From Streptomyces asoensis (GTDB lineage Bacteria; Actinomycetota; Actinomycetes; Streptomycetales; Streptomycetaceae), in NCBI RefSeq assembly GCF_016860545.1, contig NZ_BNEB01000001.1, positions 620,001 through 684,000 on the forward strand: DNA of 64,000 bases, written 5' to 3'. The translations under genes were made by a program, and so were the position numbers. The notes below the pieces were generated by a model, which was not told the DNA's origin, did not search any database, and was given only the letters and a program-made list of their open reading frames with translations. Of this stretch, positions 1-7,658 are shown piece after piece. Numbering within the stretch: the first letter of the stretch is position 1; every line of letters begins with the position of its first letter.

Positions 1-416
1 CCCGCTCCGTCGGCGACCGCGTCACCCGCCTCGACCGCTGGGAGCCGGACCTCAACTCGGCCGAACCGGACCGGATCACGGACATCACGAGCCCGGCCGC
101 GATCGGCCGCACCTACGGCCGGCTCGTCCTCGGCGACGCGCTCGCCGCCGGGGACCGCCGGCGCCTGACCGAGTGGATGCTCGGCACGGTGACCAGCGCC
201 AACCGCTTCCGGACCGGACTCCCTCCGACCTGGACGGTCGCCGACAAGACGGGCGGCGGCTGGTACGGCGCCAACAACGACGCCGGAGTCGCCTGGACCC
301 CGGACGGCGCCCCCGTCGTCCTGGTGGTCCAGCTGACCAAGCCGGACCGGGAGGCGGCCTACGACAACGAACTGATCGTGGAGACGGCGAAGCTGCTGGC
401 GCAGACGCTGGGTTAG
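1..416 (+). CDS. Class A beta-lactamase, 3' part only
   Basis: C-terminal ~137 residues of a serine beta-lactamase that hydrolyses beta-lactam rings in the periplasm or outside the cell. The reading frame is open from base 3. It contains the omega-loop motif RLDRWEPDLN, whose Glu is the general base (Ambler E166), and the KTGGG box (Ambler 234-236) in ADKTGGGWYGANND. The catalytic Ser-x-x-Lys and SDN motifs would lie upstream, outside the window. The TAG stop is at 414-416. The next gene is convergent, with only 9 bases between the stops. The assignment rests on two motifs in the right order and spacing; the gene looks intact over the visible part. Confidence 0.9.
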   Translation, partial: RSVGDRVTRLDRWEPDLNSAEPDRITDITSPAAIGRTYGRLVLGDALAAGDRRRLTEWMLGTVTSANRFRTGLPPTWTVADKTGGGWYGANNDAGVAWTPDGAPVVLVVQLTKPDREAAYDNELIVETAKLLAQTLG

Positions 417-425
417 GGACACCCC

Positions 426-1394
426 CTAGGCGCCGTTGGGCCCGAGCCGGACGCTGTCCGGGGTGCCGTTCGGCGAGGCACCCCGGGCGGCGGCCTCCCA
501 CAGCTGGTCGAAGCGGCGGATCAGCGGCTGGACCTCGTCGGCCCGGGCGTTCACCGTGGTCGACGTGTTCACGCTCAGCTGGTCGGCGTGGATCTCGTAC
601 GTCAGCACGCCGTCGAAGACGATGCAGTCGATCATCTTGCCGCGGCGCAGATAGAGCGGGAGCGCCTCCAGGGCCACCACCTGGACCTGGATGCCCATCT
701 CCCGCTGCTCGGCGCAGATCGGCTCCAGGGCGGCCAGTTCCTCGGGCTGTTTCACGATGAACAGGCGCCGGACGCGGATCTGCCGCTCGAGGATCGCCTC
801 GCGCTGGGCGGTCAGATAGCGTCCGGCCGGTTCGGTGTTCCAGAACCCGTCGTCGACGACGGTGGTGCTGATGGCGTCGATGCTGGTCCGCGCGCACTTG
901 GTGAGCGTGAGGAGCCAGTCGTGGTTCTCGCCCGCGCACTCGGCGCTGAGGTTGGTGAAGTCCTCCATCTGCGCGGCGAGCCGGTCGATCTCCGCGTGGG
1001 CGAACCCGTGCAGGATCTCGGGGCCCATGGAGACGACCTTCGTGGCGTGCTCGGCGAGCCGGGGCACCCCGTCGCCGCGCAGCTTCTCCACCTCGGTGAA
1101 GAGCTTCGTCGCCTCGCCTATGTCGGCGAACCGCTTGTCCACCGACTCCCTGAGTTCGGCCAGCTGGCTCACGAAGGACGCCAGGAACTGGACGATCAGC
1201 ACGATGCCGCCGCACAGCACCGAGAGCACGAGCTGCCACGGACCGTCCTCGTCGGACGGTCCGACGACATTGGTGAGCAGGAAGACGACGCCGCCCGCCA
1301 CCACGGTGATCAGGATCTTCTGCGTCACATGCCGGGCACCCTCGCCGTCGCGGATCCGGTCACCCCGGACGTACGAGTTCGTCGGTGCATTCAT
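426..1394 (-). CDS. Two-TM membrane-anchored protein of unknown function
   Basis: 322 aa. Two hydrophobic segments near the N-terminus (about residues 26-44 and 54-74) would anchor it in the membrane. A charged, probably helical stretch (about 80-150) follows, then a soluble C-terminal domain of about 170 residues. That domain contains the phrase ARTSIDAISTTVVDDGFWN and alternating beta/helix character reminiscent of phospholipase D-like folds, but no HKD catalytic motif is visible, so I assign no activity. It starts 52 bases downstream of the SCO2521-like gene stop and reads in the same direction, so it may be co-transcribed with that cassette. The stop is close to, and convergent with, the beta-lactamase stop. 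Confidence 0.75.
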   Translation of the reverse strand: MNAPTNSYVRGDRIRDGEGARHVTQKILITVVAGGVVFLLTNVVGPSDEDGPWQLVLSVLCGGIVLIVQFLASFVSQLAELRESVDKRFADIGEATKLFTEVEKLRGDGVPRLAEHATKVVSMGPEILHGFAHAEIDRLAAQMEDFTNLSAECAGENHDWLLTLTKCARTSIDAISTTVVDDGFWNTEPAGRYLTAQREAILERQIRVRRLFIVKQPEELAALEPICAEQREMGIQVQVVALEALPLYLRRGKMIDCIVFDGVLTYEIHADQLSVNTSTTVNARADEVQPLIRRFDQLWEAAARGASPNGTPDSVRLGPNGA

Positions 1395-1445
1395 CTCTCT
1401 TTCTCCCCCCGTCGGGATCGTGCGCGAGCAGGTGTAGTGATGCCG

Positions 1446-2408
1446 TCAGGACCGGGCCGGCGCGTCGCCCCGGATGAGGTTCTGGAGGGCCAGCTGGTCC
1501 CGGATGCGCTGTGCCATGGTGTTCCACTGCCTGCTGAACCCGGGGTGCCGCTCCAGCTCCTCCCAGAGCGGGCTCAGGGCGCGGTCCAGGCGCGCCCGGG
1601 GCATCCACAGGTGCAGCAGGTGGTCGACGAGCGGACGCAGGACCTTCAGCGCGGCCGCCTGGTTCTCGGAGCCGGGCGGCAGGCCGTCGAGCTTGTCGCC
1701 GACGGTCGTCAGCAGCCAGTCGTGCAGGGCCAGGTCCTCGCAGAGCGCGGCCGCCGCCAGGGGCGTGGTGCCCCGGGGCAGCCGGAGTTCGGCGATCCGC
1801 AGTCCCGAGCCGAGTTCGGTGAGGAGCGCCGAGGCCGGCTCGCCGTCGCCGGCGGGCGAGGCGGTCCAGCGCAGGCTGGTGTCGGTCGTGGTGAGCGGGG
1901 CGTCGTGGTCCAGGAGGTCGTGGCGGGAGATCCTCGCCAGCAGGCTCTCGGCGATCGAGCCGACGTCCAGCCGGTCCTGCTGGTGTCCGGTCAGGAAGCC
2001 CTCGGTGACCGACTTGCCGGGCAGCCGGCCGACCGGGACCAGAAGCCCGGGCCGGACCAGGTAGTACCCCCAGGGCCGGCGCCGATCGGGCCCCTCGGCC
2101 GGGGCGGAGAAGTACGCGGTCGACTGGAGAACGCGGCCTTCGACGAGCCCCGCGTGGGCCGTCACGGTGCCCACCGCGCGGACCTTGGCCCCGGTGGCGG
2201 TGGGCAGCAGGCAGTCGACGCCGGTGAGGACGCCGGGCGAGCAGGCGTGCCGGTTGGGGCGCCGGGAGGTCCGTACGGGTTCGTCGGCGCGCAGCCCCAG
2301 CAGCCGCACGGCGGTCGGTTCGTCCACCGCCCTGCGGTGGGGCAGCAGGCAGGTGCGCACCTCCCCGCAGGCGAGGACCGGACCGGAGGTCGTGCCCAGG
2401 CCGCCCAT
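1446..2408 (-). CDS. SCO2521-family protein, function unknown
   Basis: 320 aa. I recognise it as the family named after S. coelicolor SCO2521, which has no assigned role. No signal peptide, membrane segment or catalytic motif stands out. The N-terminal half is rich in short beta-like stretches (motif GVDCLLPTATG); the C-terminal half is Leu/Asp-rich and probably helical (HDWLLTTVGDKL, LRPLVDHLLHLWMPRARLD). The ATG at 2408 lies one base past the stop of the SCO2522-like gene, so translation is probably coupled. It is the last member of the five-gene cassette and is followed closely by the two-TM gene. Confidence 0.8.
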   Translation of the reverse strand: MGGLGTTSGPVLACGEVRTCLLPHRRAVDEPTAVRLLGLRADEPVRTSRRPNRHACSPGVLTGVDCLLPTATGAKVRAVGTVTAHAGLVEGRVLQSTAYFSAPAEGPDRRRPWGYYLVRPGLLVPVGRLPGKSVTEGFLTGHQQDRLDVGSIAESLLARISRHDLLDHDAPLTTTDTSLRWTASPAGDGEPASALLTELGSGLRIAELRLPRGTTPLAAAALCEDLALHDWLLTTVGDKLDGLPPGSENQAAALKVLRPLVDHLLHLWMPRARLDRALSPLWEELERHPGFSRQWNTMAQRIRDQLALQNLIRGDAPARS

Positions 2409-2409
2409 G

Positions 2410-3402
2410 TCACAGCCCCGGCGGGAACACGTAGGACGTGCGGTCCACGACGCCCGCGGGCACCGGGAAGCCCTCGCCGGCGGACCGCTCGGCGACCTGC
2501 GCGAGCGCCTCGGCCTCGACGTGGACCTGGTCGAGGATGACGCGTACGGCGTGTTCGACGGGCAGGAACCGGGACGGCAGGACGCTACAGGTGGCGTAGG
2601 CGGTGAAGGGCGTCGCGGAGGGGTTGAGCCGCAGGACCGGCGGCAGCGCGTCCCAGTCCGCGGGGAACGTGCCGTCCTCCCACCGCACGGGGGTCAGCAC
2701 GGCGGCGCCGTTGTGCCGCAGCAGCCCGAGCCGGACGAGCTGCCAGACAGCCGCGAGGAAGGCGCAGGACCAGGTGCGGCCGTCCTCGGGGCCGTTCCAC
2801 AGTTCGACGTCGAGGAAGACGGAGTGGCCGCGGGCCTCGGTCTCGCTGGGCGGCTGCCAGACGCCGGTGGCGTCGAGGGCGGCGGAGGTGCGCTGCGAGG
2901 GCGTGCGGCGGCCGTTGGTGAGCCAGCCGGTGCGGCCGACGGGCGGGCGGAAGCCGTTGCTGCCGGGCGGCGGGGACTCCACCAGCCGGTGCAGGACGGA
3001 CTCGGCGAGCACGGCCCGGTCGCGGTGGCGGGAGCCGTCGGCCGCGGGGCCGGCGCAGCCCGACTCGCGGGCCAGGTAGTCGATGGTCAGCCCGGCCTCG
3101 GCGGCCGCCTCCAGCAGGGGCGGGATCAGTTCGGCGGGGGTGGACAGCCGGGAGAAGTAGTCGTCGATCAGGAAGCAGGTGCTGATCCGGGGCCGGCGGC
3201 CCGGCGCGAGCGGGCCGAGGCCTGCCCGGGCGGCCTCCACCCAGGGCCGTACGGCGGCGAAGTGCCGGCGCAGCCTGGTGGGCCCCTCGGCGAAGTCCTC
3301 CATGTACAAGTGGCCCAATTCCAGGGAGAGATGGGAGAAGGGCACGGATTCGGTGCGCGGGTCGGCGCTGCTCTCCCGGAATGCGGTGCCCGGCCCTTTC
3401 AC
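2410..3402 (-). CDS. SCO2522-family protein, function unknown
   Basis: About 330 aa, matching the Streptomyces family named after SCO2522. The recognisable N-terminal block is SVPFSHLSLELGHLYMEDF, followed by STCFLIDDYF. There are no obvious membrane segments or nucleotide-binding motifs. I chose GTG at 3402 because it overlaps the upstream TGA as GTGA (3399-3402), the same 4-bp coupling used by the next gene up. A second GTG at 3345, just before the conserved block, is an alternative. The frame is open further upstream to 3810, but that part runs antisense to the real frame of the P-loop gene and is a shadow. Confidence 0.8.
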   Translation of the reverse strand: MKGPGTAFRESSADPRTESVPFSHLSLELGHLYMEDFAEGPTRLRRHFAAVRPWVEAARAGLGPLAPGRRPRISTCFLIDDYFSRLSTPAELIPPLLEAAAEAGLTIDYLARESGCAGPAADGSRHRDRAVLAESVLHRLVESPPPGSNGFRPPVGRTGWLTNGRRTPSQRTSAALDATGVWQPPSETEARGHSVFLDVELWNGPEDGRTWSCAFLAAVWQLVRLGLLRHNGAAVLTPVRWEDGTFPADWDALPPVLRLNPSATPFTAYATCSVLPSRFLPVEHAVRVILDQVHVEAEALAQVAERSAGEGFPVPAGVVDRTSYVFPPGL

Positions 3403-4325
3403 AACTGCCCCCAGAACTTGTCGTCGGTCAGCCGCTGCGCGAGGTCTCCGATGGCCTGCCAGGTCTCGTTGTTGGCGATCCGGCGGTCGTGCACGTCCTC
3501 GTCGGTGATGAGGCGTTCCTGCCACTGGAGCACGGGTTCCAGGGGAATGGACGCCAGCACCCTGGTCCTGCCGATGCCCCGGCCGGCCGCGAGTTCCTCG
3601 AGTTCCTTGTCGCACTGCCGCATCCACGCGTATTGCGCGGGCGACACCTGGGACCACAACGGCGACTCCAGATCGGGAACGGCGGCGCGGACGAACCGGA
3701 TGGCGCCGCCGAGCGCGTCCGGCGGGTGTCCGAAGGCCGTACCGGCTTGCACGATGCCCTGTTTGCCGAATACGAGTTCGGCCGCCGCCATGACGTGCTG
3801 GCGGGTCCACCGGTGATAGACGAGCCAGCGGTTCTTCAGGCGGCCGAGCCCGCCGCGCGGTGAGGTGGCGGCGAGGGCCAGGTCCATCGCATAACTGCGT
3901 CCGGCGCTCAGGTCGACGATGATGAGGTCGAATTCGCGTTTCAGCCGCAGCACGAGGTCCACACAGCGGTGCAGGTTCTCCTCGTCGGTGACGAATTCCC
4001 CGCCCGTGCGGTCGCCCGGCAGCAGCACCAGCCGTCCGGAGCCGCTGGGCCGGCCGCGCAGGACCGGGTGTTCGGTGCGCGCCCAGACGTCGACCCGCAG
4101 CGGCTCGCCGGTCTTGCCCTTCAGATAGGAGTGCAGCCCGCGCCCCTCGGCCTCGGAGAGGACGTCGGGCAGGTCGAAGACGGCGGCGGCGGTGGGCGAG
4201 CCGAAGTCGAAGTCCAGGTAGCAGACGTCGTCCCCGTCCAGGGCGCGGTGGTAGGCGAGGTTGGCGCTGGTGACGGAGCGGCCGGTGCCTCCCTTGTCGG
4301 AGGCGGCGAAGACGAGCACCGTCAC
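3399..4325 (-). CDS. SCO2523-family variant P-loop ATPase (ParA/MinD-like)
   Basis: 308 aa, SIMIBI-class P-loop protein. The N-terminus reads MTVLVFAASDKGGTGRSV. This is the deviant Walker A of ParA/MinD/ArsA proteins (KGGxGKS/T), but the usual phosphate-binding Lys before Ser is Arg. Further ParA-like signatures are CYLDFDFGSPT (switch-like Asp) and DLIIVDLSAGRS (Walker B). A MinD-like protein would dimerise on ATP and position or activate partners; here the partners are probably the cassette proteins, which is inference. The GTG at 4325 overlaps the preceding TGA as GTGA (4322-4325). Whether it hydrolyses nucleotide with Arg in the P-loop cannot be read from sequence. Confidence 0.85.
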   Translation of the reverse strand: MTVLVFAASDKGGTGRSVTSANLAYHRALDGDDVCYLDFDFGSPTAAAVFDLPDVLSEAEGRGLHSYLKGKTGEPLRVDVWARTEHPVLRGRPSGSGRLVLLPGDRTGGEFVTDEENLHRCVDLVLRLKREFDLIIVDLSAGRSYAMDLALAATSPRGGLGRLKNRWLVYHRWTRQHVMAAAELVFGKQGIVQAGTAFGHPPDALGGAIRFVRAAVPDLESPLWSQVSPAQYAWMRQCDKELEELAAGRGIGRTRVLASIPLEPVLQWQERLITDEDVHDRRIANNETWQAIGDLAQRLTDDKFWGQL

Positions 4326-6187
4326 ACCCCCAGGGCGTCGGCGCCCCGGGCGCGGGCCAGGGCGTAGAGCCGGGCCAGGACGCCGAGGGCGAGCGCGTGG
4401 GCGGTCCCGGGCTGTTTGTCGAGGAGCTGCCGGGCCCGGCGCAGGTCGGCCTCGATGCCCTTGATCTCCTCTCCCTGGGGGCTCTTGGGCGCGGGGGCGG
4501 GCTGCTCCAGCTGCTCCTTGCCGAAGAGGTGGGCCGCCTCGCTGAGCGCCGCCTGGGCGAGGGAGGTCATCTCCGGGCTGCGGATCGGATCCTGGTTGTA
4601 GAGGCCGTGGGCGGCGACCATGCACTCGGTGACGCGCTCGGTGATGCTCCAGGACAGCGGCCCGGTGCGCACCGGTGATTCCGGGTACACGGCGTGCACG
4701 TTGTCCCACAGGCCGACCCCGTCGCCCTCGCTGATCCGGCGCGCCCAGAGGTGGTCGAGGATGCTCTCGGCGAGGGAGAGCAGCCGGTCCTGGGAGCCGA
4801 TGTTCCGGGACAGGGCGCACAGCTGGATGGTGCGTTTGAGCAGCTGGGCCGAGAAGTCGGCCATCGTCCACTTCATGGCCGGGCCGATCTCCTCGCTGCC
4901 CAGCAGCGGCAGGGTGACTCCGGGGTTGTGCAGCCCGATCGCCGGGTCCTCGCGGGCCGTGCGGCTGGTGATGCGGCCGCGTTCGGCGAGGCGTTCCATG
5001 ACGGCGACGGTGCGGGTGAGGTCGTCGTCGGTGGCCCGGCGGCGCACCAGGTCGTGGACGAGGATCGAGGCCACGGAGAGGGAGAAGTACTCCGACTCCA
5101 GTTGCTGGAGCGTGGTGCGCCAGGGGATCTCCTCCAGCGGCCAGGTGGCGGCGTCGAAGCGGGCGATGCCGGACCAGTACTGCTGGGTGATCTCCCAGCG
5201 CAGCCGTAACGCGTCGGCGAGCCGCTGCTGTTCGGCGGTGAGCAGACCGAGGACGAGGGTGCGCTCGGAGGACAGGTCGGGGATGCCGTCGAGGGCGACG
5301 ACGGTGAAGTACAGGTACGGCACGGCCTTGGCCACGCCCTGGGGCTGTTTGCCGATGTCCTGGGCGGTCTGCGCCTCCACCTCGACCTCGGGGGCGCCCT
5401 TCACCAGGCTCCAGGCCCAGCCGCACTCGAACAGCCGGTTCTCGTTGCGGAGCTGGTCGGCGACGTCGGTGTCCAGACCGAGGGTGACGCTCTCGCTGAT
5501 GAGGGCGCGCAGCGACTTGAACCGTTCCTGGAAGCGCTGGAGGATCTGGCGGTCGGACAGCCTGCCCCGGCCGAGCAGCCGGGCGAGCGCCTGCCCCTGG
5601 TCGGAGCCGATGTCGACGACGTTGACGGTGAAGGAGCGCAGCAGGCTGACCATGGCGGCGGTCAGCCGGGCGCTGGTCGCCTCCCTCAGCTCGTCGATGC
5701 GGGCCAGCGTGCTCGCCCGCTGCGTCTTGCCCCGGTAGACCTTCAGGAAGCCGAGGGTGGCCAGGCACAGAGTGATCGACATGGAGTAGGAGTCGACGAC
5801 CCCGACCTGCTCCTGTTCCTCGGAGAGTTCCAGCTCCGGGTCCTCGGGGGCGAAGTAGTAGCCGCCGGCGAAGGTGGGGCTCTCCTCGCCGCGGTGCCTG
5901 TCCATGAAATCGCCGAGGATCTCCACGAGGTTCATGGGGATCTCGCTGGAGTCGCCCGCGTTCCGCAGGGCCCGTTCCACGTCCAGTTGTGTGGTGTCGG
6001 GGTCGTCCAGACGGAACGGCTCGATTTCCGTGGCGGGGTAGAGAAGGCAGAGCAGGCGCTCGGCGTCGGCGACGCTGCTACGGCCGCCCCATTCTCCCCA
6101 TTCCCATGCCCCGCTGTCGAAGGAATGGCGCGCGATGGCCTGCCACACTTCGAGCAGATTCTGTCTCGGTTTGATCTGCACGCCCAT
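4322..6187 (-). CDS. SCO2524-family protein, function unknown
   Basis: About 621 aa, largely alpha-helical by composition, with no signal peptide and no clear transmembrane helix. It belongs to the family named after SCO2524. Recognisable stretches are RQNLLEVWQAIARHSF near the start and GLHNPGVTLPLLGSEEIG around the middle. No catalytic motif was found. I chose ATG 6187 because GGTGA lies five bases upstream; a GTG at 6196 is possible. The stop overlaps the P-loop gene start by 4 bp, so the two are almost certainly made together. The large helical body would fit a scaffold or partner for the P-loop protein, but that is a guess. Confidence 0.8.
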   Translation of the reverse strand: MGVQIKPRQNLLEVWQAIARHSFDSGAWEWGEWGGRSSVADAERLLCLLYPATEIEPFRLDDPDTTQLDVERALRNAGDSSEIPMNLVEILGDFMDRHRGEESPTFAGGYYFAPEDPELELSEEQEQVGVVDSYSMSITLCLATLGFLKVYRGKTQRASTLARIDELREATSARLTAAMVSLLRSFTVNVVDIGSDQGQALARLLGRGRLSDRQILQRFQERFKSLRALISESVTLGLDTDVADQLRNENRLFECGWAWSLVKGAPEVEVEAQTAQDIGKQPQGVAKAVPYLYFTVVALDGIPDLSSERTLVLGLLTAEQQRLADALRLRWEITQQYWSGIARFDAATWPLEEIPWRTTLQQLESEYFSLSVASILVHDLVRRRATDDDLTRTVAVMERLAERGRITSRTAREDPAIGLHNPGVTLPLLGSEEIGPAMKWTMADFSAQLLKRTIQLCALSRNIGSQDRLLSLAESILDHLWARRISEGDGVGLWDNVHAVYPESPVRTGPLSWSITERVTECMVAAHGLYNQDPIRSPEMTSLAQAALSEAAHLFGKEQLEQPAPAPKSPQGEEIKGIEADLRRARQLLDKQPGTAHALALGVLARLYALARARGADALGV

Positions 6188-6232
6188 CCCCCTCACCCGG
6201 GCCCGTCACCATGGAAAAGTATGTCCGGCAGT

Positions 6233-7018
6233 TCACTCCTCGTGCCGGGCTTTTCGTTTCCCGCAGGCCAGGATCATACCCGTGTAACCGTCCCTCACCA
6301 GCTGCTGCGGATTGGCCGTGCGATGGATCTCGACATCTTCGGCGTATGCGCCGAGAACCGTCCGCACCTCGGATTCGTCGATATCGCGGGCCGGGAACCT
6401 GTGGGCGCCGACCTGATATCCCTCGGAATGCTCCATGAAAGCGGCGGCGAAAGGCGCGCCGGATTTCAGGGCGTTCATGAAACACCCCACGCCGCGCCGG
6501 AACTCGGCGAGGGAGGTGGTGATGGACTCGGCGACGAAGAACATGGTGCCGAGGTCCCAGCGGCGCTCGTCGGCACAGAGATCGAAGAGACTGCCCGGCT
6601 CGGGCTGCCCCACGGCCTCCTTGAACCGGACCCGGGGTGCCATGTCGAGCGTGGCATATGCCTCGTCCTTGCACAGGACGTTCCAGAACTGGTCCCAGTG
6701 GGGGGCGTAGTCCGGGCACTGGCCACGGAGATAGTCCAGATTGCGGGCCGACCGCTCCAGAAGCGTGATCCGGTCGCACCAGGGAAGCATGGCGAGAGCG
6801 GGATAGAGATTGGGCCCGGCCCCGACGTCGATACCGGAAGCGACCCGCCCGCCGCCCCGGAAGTGATCACTGAAGTGATCGCGCACGTGGGAGAGAATCT
6901 CCTCGTCGACAGCCTGCATCTCGAGGTAATTGTGACTGATGTACACACGGGGATCGAAGGCGTCCCACAGCACATCGTCATTCAGCTCTTGGTCAGCGGC
7001 AGGCGGTACCGAGGTCAT
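6233..7018 (-). CDS. SCO2525-family SAM-dependent methyltransferase
   Basis: 261 aa class I methyltransferase of the NNMT/PNMT/TEMT type (small-molecule N- or S-methyltransferases). The SAM-binding motif I is GIDVGAGPNLYPA; motif II-like acidic residue follows in ITLLERS, and DLGTMFFVAESIT resembles the NNMT post-motif helix region. An N-terminal Tyr-rich lid (DPRVYISHNY) is typical of this group. It is the first gene of the cassette. An extended -10-like TACGCT ends five bases before the ATG with no Shine-Dalgarno sequence, so the mRNA may be leaderless. The substrate is unknown; the linked P-loop and SCO2522/2524 proteins suggest a dedicated role. Confidence 0.85.
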   Translation of the reverse strand: MTSVPPAADQELNDDVLWDAFDPRVYISHNYLEMQAVDEEILSHVRDHFSDHFRGGGRVASGIDVGAGPNLYPALAMLPWCDRITLLERSARNLDYLRGQCPDYAPHWDQFWNVLCKDEAYATLDMAPRVRFKEAVGQPEPGSLFDLCADERRWDLGTMFFVAESITTSLAEFRRGVGCFMNALKSGAPFAAAFMEHSEGYQVGAHRFPARDIDESEVRTVLGAYAEDVEIHRTANPQQLVRDGYTGMILACGKRKARHEE

Positions 7019-7139
7019 GATTCAGCGTAGCAGGACGCATGGGTCTTGAAGGAGTGCGTGCACCGGGCAATGATGGAGATCAGATACGCAAATCGCACTG
7101 ACTCCAATTCGATTTGTCGACACTTCACAAGGGGACCGC
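7019..7139. promoter_or_regulatory. Divergent promoter region, methyltransferase cassette versus GNAT gene
   Basis: This 121-bp intergenic region is clearly less GC-rich than its surroundings. On the plus strand TTGAAG (7046-7051) is followed after 17 bases by AATGAT (7069-7074), a plausible housekeeping promoter for the acetyltransferase gene. On the minus strand TACGCT (7024-7029) sits directly before the cassette start at 7018, as expected for a leaderless transcript. Both are motif readings only; no start site is known. Confidence 0.45.
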
Positions 7140-7658
7140 ATGAATCCTCTTCCCGGAGACCGTTCTCCGTCGGGCACCGGTTCGACATTGAGCCAGATGT
7201 CCGGAGAAAGACCCTTACGGATCAGAGCGGTCACCGAGGCGGATCTGCCTCATATCGTGCGGCTCGACGCCGACGCCTTCCCGCACGGTCCCTACCCGTT
7301 CTTCGTCCTGCGCCAACTCCTCACCGCCTGCACCGGCCTCGTCTACGTCGTGGACGACGGCTCGGACCTCTACGGATACGTGCTCGGCACCGCGCCGAAC
7401 GACGCGCAGAGCTGGGTCCTGAGCCTCGCCATCACCCCCCGGCTGCGCGGCAAGGGCTTCGGCCGGGAACTGATGACGAGACTGCTCGGCCAGCTGCGCG
7501 CCAAGGGCGCCCACTCGGTCCGGCTCTCCGTGGAACCGCGCAACGACTCGGCCATCGCGCTCTACCGTTCCCTGGGCTTCGTCGCCGATCCCGGCGGGCC
7601 GCACCCGGACTACTTCGGCCCCGGCGAGGACCGTCTCCTCATGACCCTGGCCCTGTGA
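7140..7658 (+). CDS. GNAT family N-acetyltransferase
   Basis: 172 aa. It transfers acetyl from acetyl-CoA to an amine substrate that is not predictable here. The fold signatures are LSLAITPRLRGKGFGREL (motif A, with the acetyl-CoA pyrophosphate loop RxxGxG/A) and VEPRNDSAIALYRSLGF (motif B, RimI-like). The similarity to RimI suggests protein N-terminal or small-amine acetylation. AGGGG lies five bases before the ATG. A second Met at 7197 begins the conserved domain, so the first ~19 residues are uncertain. The end overlaps the convergent phosphatase-like gene by 20 bp. Confidence 0.85.
   Translation: MNPLPGDRSPSGTGSTLSQMSGERPLRIRAVTEADLPHIVRLDADAFPHGPYPFFVLRQLLTACTGLVYVVDDGSDLYGYVLGTAPNDAQSWVLSLAITPRLRGKGFGRELMTRLLGQLRAKGAHSVRLSVEPRNDSAIALYRSLGFVADPGGPHPDYFGPGEDRLLMTLAL

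Follow-up and report, generated by a model that had tools for sequence, protein, structure and literature searches.

A four-family gene core with alternative membrane partners in actinobacteria, possibly part of a conflict-type response

The cassette described here from Streptomyces asoensis is one instance of a real and widespread multi-protein system, which consists of a core of four families (SCO2521 to SCO2524), an adjoining membrane protein gene and, usually, genes for a methyltransferase and a GNAT-family acetyltransferase. Regarding its function, we tentatively favor a membrane-linked conflict-type response complex, likely acting in defense against invaders such as phages, and give this reading a little less than even weight. 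It is preferred because modules are shared with conflict systems, the membrane partners occur on an either/or basis, and the distribution is patchy; this weight applies to the conflict response as a whole, and the assignment of a sensor within it is weaker.

Results

The window, i.e., the whole stretch that was analyzed, comprises 64,000 nucleotides (NZ_BNEB01000001.1, positions 620,001 to 684,000). Six minus-strand genes are present as originally predicted, with the methyltransferase gene first. This SCO2525-family gene (6233–7018) is followed by that for the large SCO2524-family protein (4322–6187), which starts with ATG at 6187 or GTG at 6181, leaving a spacing of 45 or 51 bases, respectively. 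The gene for the SCO2523-family variant P-loop protein, with the motif KGGTGRS (3399–4325), is joined by GTGA overlaps to the SCO2524-like gene (4322–4325) and to the SCO2522-like gene (2410–3402; overlap at 3399–3402), and the SCO2521-like gene (1446–2408) follows after a gap of one base, again as claimed. The gap to the membrane protein gene (426–1394) is 51 bases, not 52 as first given. All five curated NCBIfam cut-offs were passed, with scores of 321.7 bits against 240 for SCO2525 (NF040568), 878.6 against 300 for SCO2524 (NF040567), 468.6 against 200 for SCO2523 (NF040564), 453.6 against 200 for SCO2522 (NF040566), and 377.1 against 150 for SCO2521 (NF040565). The window proteins are thereby members of these families, the descriptions of which are limited to a family name (with variant P-loop or methyltransferase for two of them) and contain no system, membrane partner, GNAT protein, or mechanism.

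Although all six genes are present, the unit as first delimited was incomplete, since a divergently oriented GNAT-family gene (7140–7658, plus strand) is linked to it across genera. Its product passed the gathering cut-off of PF00583 (60.3 bits against 20.7), and the true start may fall inside the listed ORF. The methyltransferase is of the NNMT/PNMT/TEMT type; it exceeded the gathering cut-off of PF01234 (49.5 bits against 25), and its best sequence match in the PDB was PNMT (E 0.0018). A likely −10 element of the leaderless type, TACGCT, is located five bases 5' of its ATG (7024–7031, minus strand). Of 75 regions upstream of SCO2525, 49 have this pattern next to the ATG, compared with a mean of 0.67 in mononucleotide shuffles, a comparison to be read in the light of a pattern written after reading the upstream sequences and of 75 loci that are related. 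Two or more TGCGCCC-type repeats were also observed upstream of SCO2525 in 28 of the 75 loci, and none were seen in the window (7019–7178). At the other end, positions 3–416 (plus strand) encode the C-terminal part of a serine hydrolase, which we take to be beta-lactamase-like from a KTGG string; a homologue of 292 aa is present in locus L197.

The four core families were almost always found together. Among 197 genomes of the order, SCO2524 was detected in 58, SCO2521 and SCO2522 in 59 each, and SCO2523 over its cut-off in 57, with 29 more having weak P-loop matches only. A comparison of these lists showed all four families in 57 of the 59 genomes holding any of them, including one (G198) in which SCO2524 is in pieces. 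The two exceptions were G133, in which SCO2523 was not found and the core is split over contigs, and G234, in which other genes occupy the place of the absent SCO2523 and SCO2524. SCO2525 was found in 47 genomes (E ≤ 1e-60), every one of which also holds core families, and all five families co-occur in 45 of the 59 core-holding genomes, one of which, G045, has its SCO2525 copy far away from the core. In 79 loci collected by SCO2523 similarity, mostly from Streptomyces, every locus contained SCO2521, SCO2522, and SCO2524; 78 also had the membrane gene, and 74 had SCO2525. The nearest relatives of SCO2523 (97 percent) came from Streptomyces or other actinobacteria. When 296 genomes from across the class were screened with SCO2521 as the sole criterion, 29 were positive; the same core was present in 19 of the 20 regions outside the own genus, which are all such regions in the sample, and the twentieth is a 5.4-kb contig. 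The dedicated complex proposed originally is, therefore, well supported as a dedicated unit, the families being seldom apart in the 197 genomes, but this is qualified by partial extra copies in Catenulispora-family genomes (L091, L092, and L104).

For further counts, we used 107 core loci, namely the 111 examined minus one duplicate (L191, identical to L083) and three with an incomplete core (L091, L092, and L194). Two-cassette loci were entered once, and since the loci share descent, they do not represent 107 independent events. The GNAT gene was detected in 89 of the 107 and not in the remaining 18 (L047, L071, L073, L081, L082, L084–L088, L096, L176–L180, L186, and L189), of which L084–L088 are from Actinomadura. 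Where SCO2525 is missing (L070, L072, and L075), the GNAT gene is relocated yet still linked, on the same strand downstream, and it also adjoins Catenulispora-family cassettes. A single-sequence query (E ≤ 1e-20) found it in 48 of the 197 genomes, and 43 of the 45 positive genomes of the own genus carry SCO2524, the other two being G107 and G144.

Several loci depart from the common arrangement. At L090, L094, L098, L144, and L145 in the Catenulispora family, the core cassette is present in two diverged copies, which are oppositely oriented and either converge or diverge. A decaying cassette on one contig of G198 (L075 and L100) has SCO2524 in pieces, a remnant of the membrane gene, and no SCO2525. 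The order SCO2524-SCO2523-SCO2524, without SCO2521 or SCO2522 and with the P-loop QGGVGTT, was seen at L092:9418-14035, where it converges with genes for a 1432-aa AAA-WD40 protein and an LCAT-like hydrolase. A module of an FAD-dependent oxidase and a GNAT protein lies between SCO2523 and SCO2522 at L071:11035-13255, and a two-gene module of this type, with its families scanned in L071 only, replaces SCO2524-SCO2523 at L105:5356-7579. A SCO2525-family methyltransferase gene is also found far from the core cassette at L141:9431-10156 (G045).

The protein encoded at 426–1394 has two hydrophobic segments by hydropathy (residues 23–41 and 55–73), in agreement with the two transmembrane helices expected, followed by a linker and a DUF6879-like C-terminal domain. 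The window protein itself scored 20.3 bits against DUF6879 (PF21806), under the cut-off of 23.9, and the domain was matched by 33 of 36 members of its family (E ≤ 0.1; best 3.8e-11). The position of the gene varies: in Streptomyces it is located 3' of SCO2521, in Frankia and some other cases it separates SCO2523 from SCO2522, and in Actinomadura it lies upstream in divergent orientation. A different membrane protein, unrelated to the first and hydrophobic in its C-terminal region, takes its place in the majority of Catenulispora-family loci and at three further loci. The first kind was present in 94 of the 107 core loci (L075 being counted on an 84-bit remnant only), the second in 10, both in none, and neither in three (L071, L096, and L186). 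The gene initially regarded as an extra is thus indeed linked, but it is a partner with an unrelated alternative and not an addition. A single-sequence search found the first kind in 42 of 44 SCO2524-positive genomes of the own genus, the exceptions being G139 and G198; at L023, L028, L053, and L069, it is duplicated in tandem. By hydropathy, two of three proteins of the second kind have one helix and the third has two overlapping segments. Their C-terminal region presumably resembles a K+-channel pore loop; because searches of Pfam and of PDB sequences yielded nothing in favor of an ion channel, we do not claim this identity.

SCO2523 resembles MinD/ParA ATPases over its first 40–140 residues and shares with them, and with the KGGVGR-motif variant AAA family NF047398, the KGG signature and a MinD-like N-terminal region. 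It differs from both in that it remained under their cut-offs (36.9 bits against 90 for NF047398) and in that the P-loop lysine is replaced, by arginine or by glutamine or threonine, in all 122 distinct ORFs. The variants were KGGTGRS (118), KGGACRS, KGGAGRT, KGGAGQT, and QGGVGTT (one each), and the deviant Walker A motif with both lysines, KGGxGK[ST], was found in 0 of the 122 (0 of 133 including duplicates). Ordinary ATPase cycling is not expected after the loss of this lysine, and the MinD/ParA-like switch initially suggested is accordingly doubtful.

The predicted structure of SCO2522 (pLDDT 75.6, pTM 0.78) resembled a class I aminoacyl-tRNA-synthetase-like fold by VIA-align, and SCO2522 probably represents a derived form of this fold, although a Foldseek search gave no match at E ≤ 0.001. 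It differs from the class I aminoacyl-tRNA synthetases, MshC, and the cyclodipeptide synthases in that neither a HIGH nor a KMSKS motif was found in any of 38 SCO2522 sequences and in the lack of MshC profile support. The string nearest to HIGH, ELGH (E27–H30), was rejected because it lies within the first predicted strand. A profile comparison with nine MshC-type sequences returned a probability of 1 percent in an unrelated region. The SCO2521 model (pLDDT 90.9) has a beta-rich N-terminal part and a helical C-terminal part, with no clear fold match found, and SCO2524 had no sequence relative in the PDB under E 0.02.

With SCO2524 as the query, tblastn found nothing in plasmid and phage collections, which does not favor a mobile element. 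In PADLOC-DB (2023), six of the seven window proteins had no match at E ≤ 0.01, and SCO2523 gave a weak P-loop match (20.1 bits over 38 residues); we did not, therefore, assign the cassette to a known defense system. The GNAT gene has a neighbor, called phosphatase-like on our own judgment rather than by a family search, in 43 of 61 genomes of the own genus. In G107 (L142:9350-17542), the cassette-linked GNAT gene occupies the same chromosomal site but precedes another operon, which encodes a DNA-methylase-like protein, a PLP aminotransferase, a 2-hydroxyacid dehydrogenase, and a 1427-aa WD40 protein. Among 14 regions around the phosphatase-like neighbor, the contexts of which were judged by eye, L197 carries the cassette; L196, L198, and L202 have the flank seen at L142 with other genes instead of the cassette; L199, L201, L203, and L205–L207 have the neighbor in another context; and in L200, L204, L208, and L209 the neighbor was not called by the script. 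This comparison, an inspection rather than a count, suggests that the cassette site is a variable chromosomal interval rather than a mobile element.

A link to VMAP conflict loci, which like the GNAT gene and the synthetase-like fold of SCO2522 was no part of the original proposal, came from a small number of loci whose copies are diverged, namely L091, L104, L140, and a single cluster from metagenomes. At L104, in a Catenulispora genome (G051), a SAV_2336 N-terminal protein (375 bits) carries a SCO2521 domain (228 bits, residues 739–1031) as a C-terminal fusion, and the fusion gene lies directly 3' of genes for a trypsin/VMAP-M8/VMAP-C protein and an AAA protein. Among long proteins searched for the SCO2521 domain, three clusters had this fusion, all over both cut-offs (SAV_2336, 339–371 bits; SCO2521, 209–229 bits). 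Two of them are the G051 and G050 proteins from Catenulispora and the third is from metagenomes, so that the fusion is rare, yet not one assembly error. At L091 (G038), genes for caspase/VMAP-C, AAA, and SAV_2336/CHAT proteins precede a pair of SCO2523 and SCO2521 genes. In both loci the VMAP-C and AAA proteins are present by model, while the MoxR type and the vWA component are assigned from gene order; at L104, the AAA protein would be the MoxR component and the third gene the vWA component.

In the published description of VMAP-ternary systems, the MoxR gene precedes that for the vWA component, effectors are fused to the latter or lie beside it, and inactive MinD/ParA-like domains are among the effectors (Kaur et al., 2020, PMC7159879). 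The place of the effector in these and related NTP-dependent conflict systems corresponds to the site of the SCO2521 domain at L104, and relatives of SCO2521 and SCO2523 stand inside such loci at L104 and L091. The two kinds of system, therefore, share effector modules, i.e., the SAV_2336-SCO2521 fusion and the SCO2523-SCO2521 pair. The strings "SCO25" and "KGG" have 0 occurrences in the main text of that paper. None of the six window proteins matched the VMAP, MoxR, or vWA families; the cassette is, thus, not a member of the VMAP-ternary systems, and only modules are shared.

Discussion

In the conflict-type response that we favor, SCO2524, SCO2523, SCO2522, and SCO2521 would form one complex, which may hold a membrane effector inactive until a cue of infection or stress is sensed. 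SCO2523 would bind a nucleotide, hydrolyze it poorly, and act as a conformational latch, and the synthetase-like SCO2522 may bind an adenylated or tRNA-like ligand; that SCO2522 is itself the sensor of the cue is a doubtful assignment. The membrane protein would be the output, and the threshold may be set by the methyltransferase and the GNAT protein, which would modify an amine group of a component or of a ligand. The patchy distribution is seen in the presence of SCO2524 in nine of 37 own-genus genomes of one sample and in the other operon that stands behind the GNAT gene at L142. Against this reading stand the lack of VMAP, MoxR, and vWA matches among the six window proteins, the near-empty PADLOC-DB result, the lack of SCO2524 matches in the plasmid and phage collections, the small number of loci behind the VMAP link, and a SCO2522 fold match that comes from structure, with no support from Foldseek at E ≤ 0.001 or from the MshC profile. 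A bolder version, to which we attach little confidence, is that the cassette represents a new class of self-limiting defense machine in actinobacteria, in which a nucleotide-latched core with a repurposed tRNA-synthetase fold reads the tRNA or adenylate state of the cell and frees either of two membrane effectors that can stand in for each other, the threshold being set by methyl and acetyl transfer.

The named carriers, Streptomyces, Kitasatospora, Actinacidiphila, Frankia, Actinomadura, and Thermocatellispora, are mycelial, which is consistent with the strongest alternative, a complex that controls development or growth. The core and its membrane protein would then serve hyphal growth or differentiation, and a protein or metabolite of that pathway would be the target of the methyltransferase. 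Published data also point in this direction: SCO2525 is stated to be required for normal growth (PMC11472566), is described as a HrdB target with a morphogenetic role (PMC6344877), and was the subject of a mutagenesis study by Gehring et al. (2004), cited by PMC3017869. In PMC11472566, the operon sco2521-sco2526 is listed in a HupS-only expression cluster of the transcriptome, in agreement with the co-expression that the original prediction had anticipated; from gene order, SCO2526 would be the GNAT gene. The term function-less, applied to the cassette at the outset, was too strong in view of the cited phenotype. On the other hand, 28 of 37 genomes of the own genus in one sample are without SCO2524 (nine have it), SCO2525 is absent from 21 of the 107 core loci, and the 18 loci without GNAT also argue against a developmental role. 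We consider this alternative possible but rather unlikely, and both the phenotype cited for SCO2525 and the regulons of HupS and HrdB fit it as much as they fit a conflict response.

Mycothiol biosynthesis employs a synthetase paralogue, MshC, together with a GNAT protein, MshD, and by the same logic SCO2522 may be a synthetase-derived ligase in a small-molecule pathway, the product of which would be acetylated by the GNAT protein, N-methylated by SCO2525, and exported or sensed by the membrane protein. The synthetase-like model of SCO2522, the PNMT/NNMT-like nature of SCO2525, and the presence of GNAT in 77 of 86 SCO2525-positive core loci are consistent with this. However, HIGH and KMSKS are absent from 38 of 38 SCO2522 sequences and no profile link to MshC was obtained, nine of the 107 core loci are without both SCO2525 and GNAT, and no further biosynthetic enzyme recurs in the neighborhoods read, all of which makes such a pathway improbable. 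Positioning of a membrane protein by a ParA/MinD-like system, suggested by the sub-threshold N-terminal similarity of SCO2523 and the link between the core and membrane proteins, is the least probable, as the P-loop lysine is gone in every distinct ORF.

We found no description of this multi-protein system in the open-license papers searched, and its five families, which occur in many actinobacteria, have only locus-tag names. With the present results, what was an operon with no name becomes a system that can be tested, made up of four core proteins, one of two membrane partners and, often, a methyltransferase and a GNAT protein. The probable synthetase fold of SCO2522, the lysine-less P-loop of SCO2523, and the occurrence of SCO2521 and SCO2523 as modules of VMAP loci add to what may be tested, and the cassette provides a context in which the SCO2525 mutant phenotype cited in the literature may be revisited.
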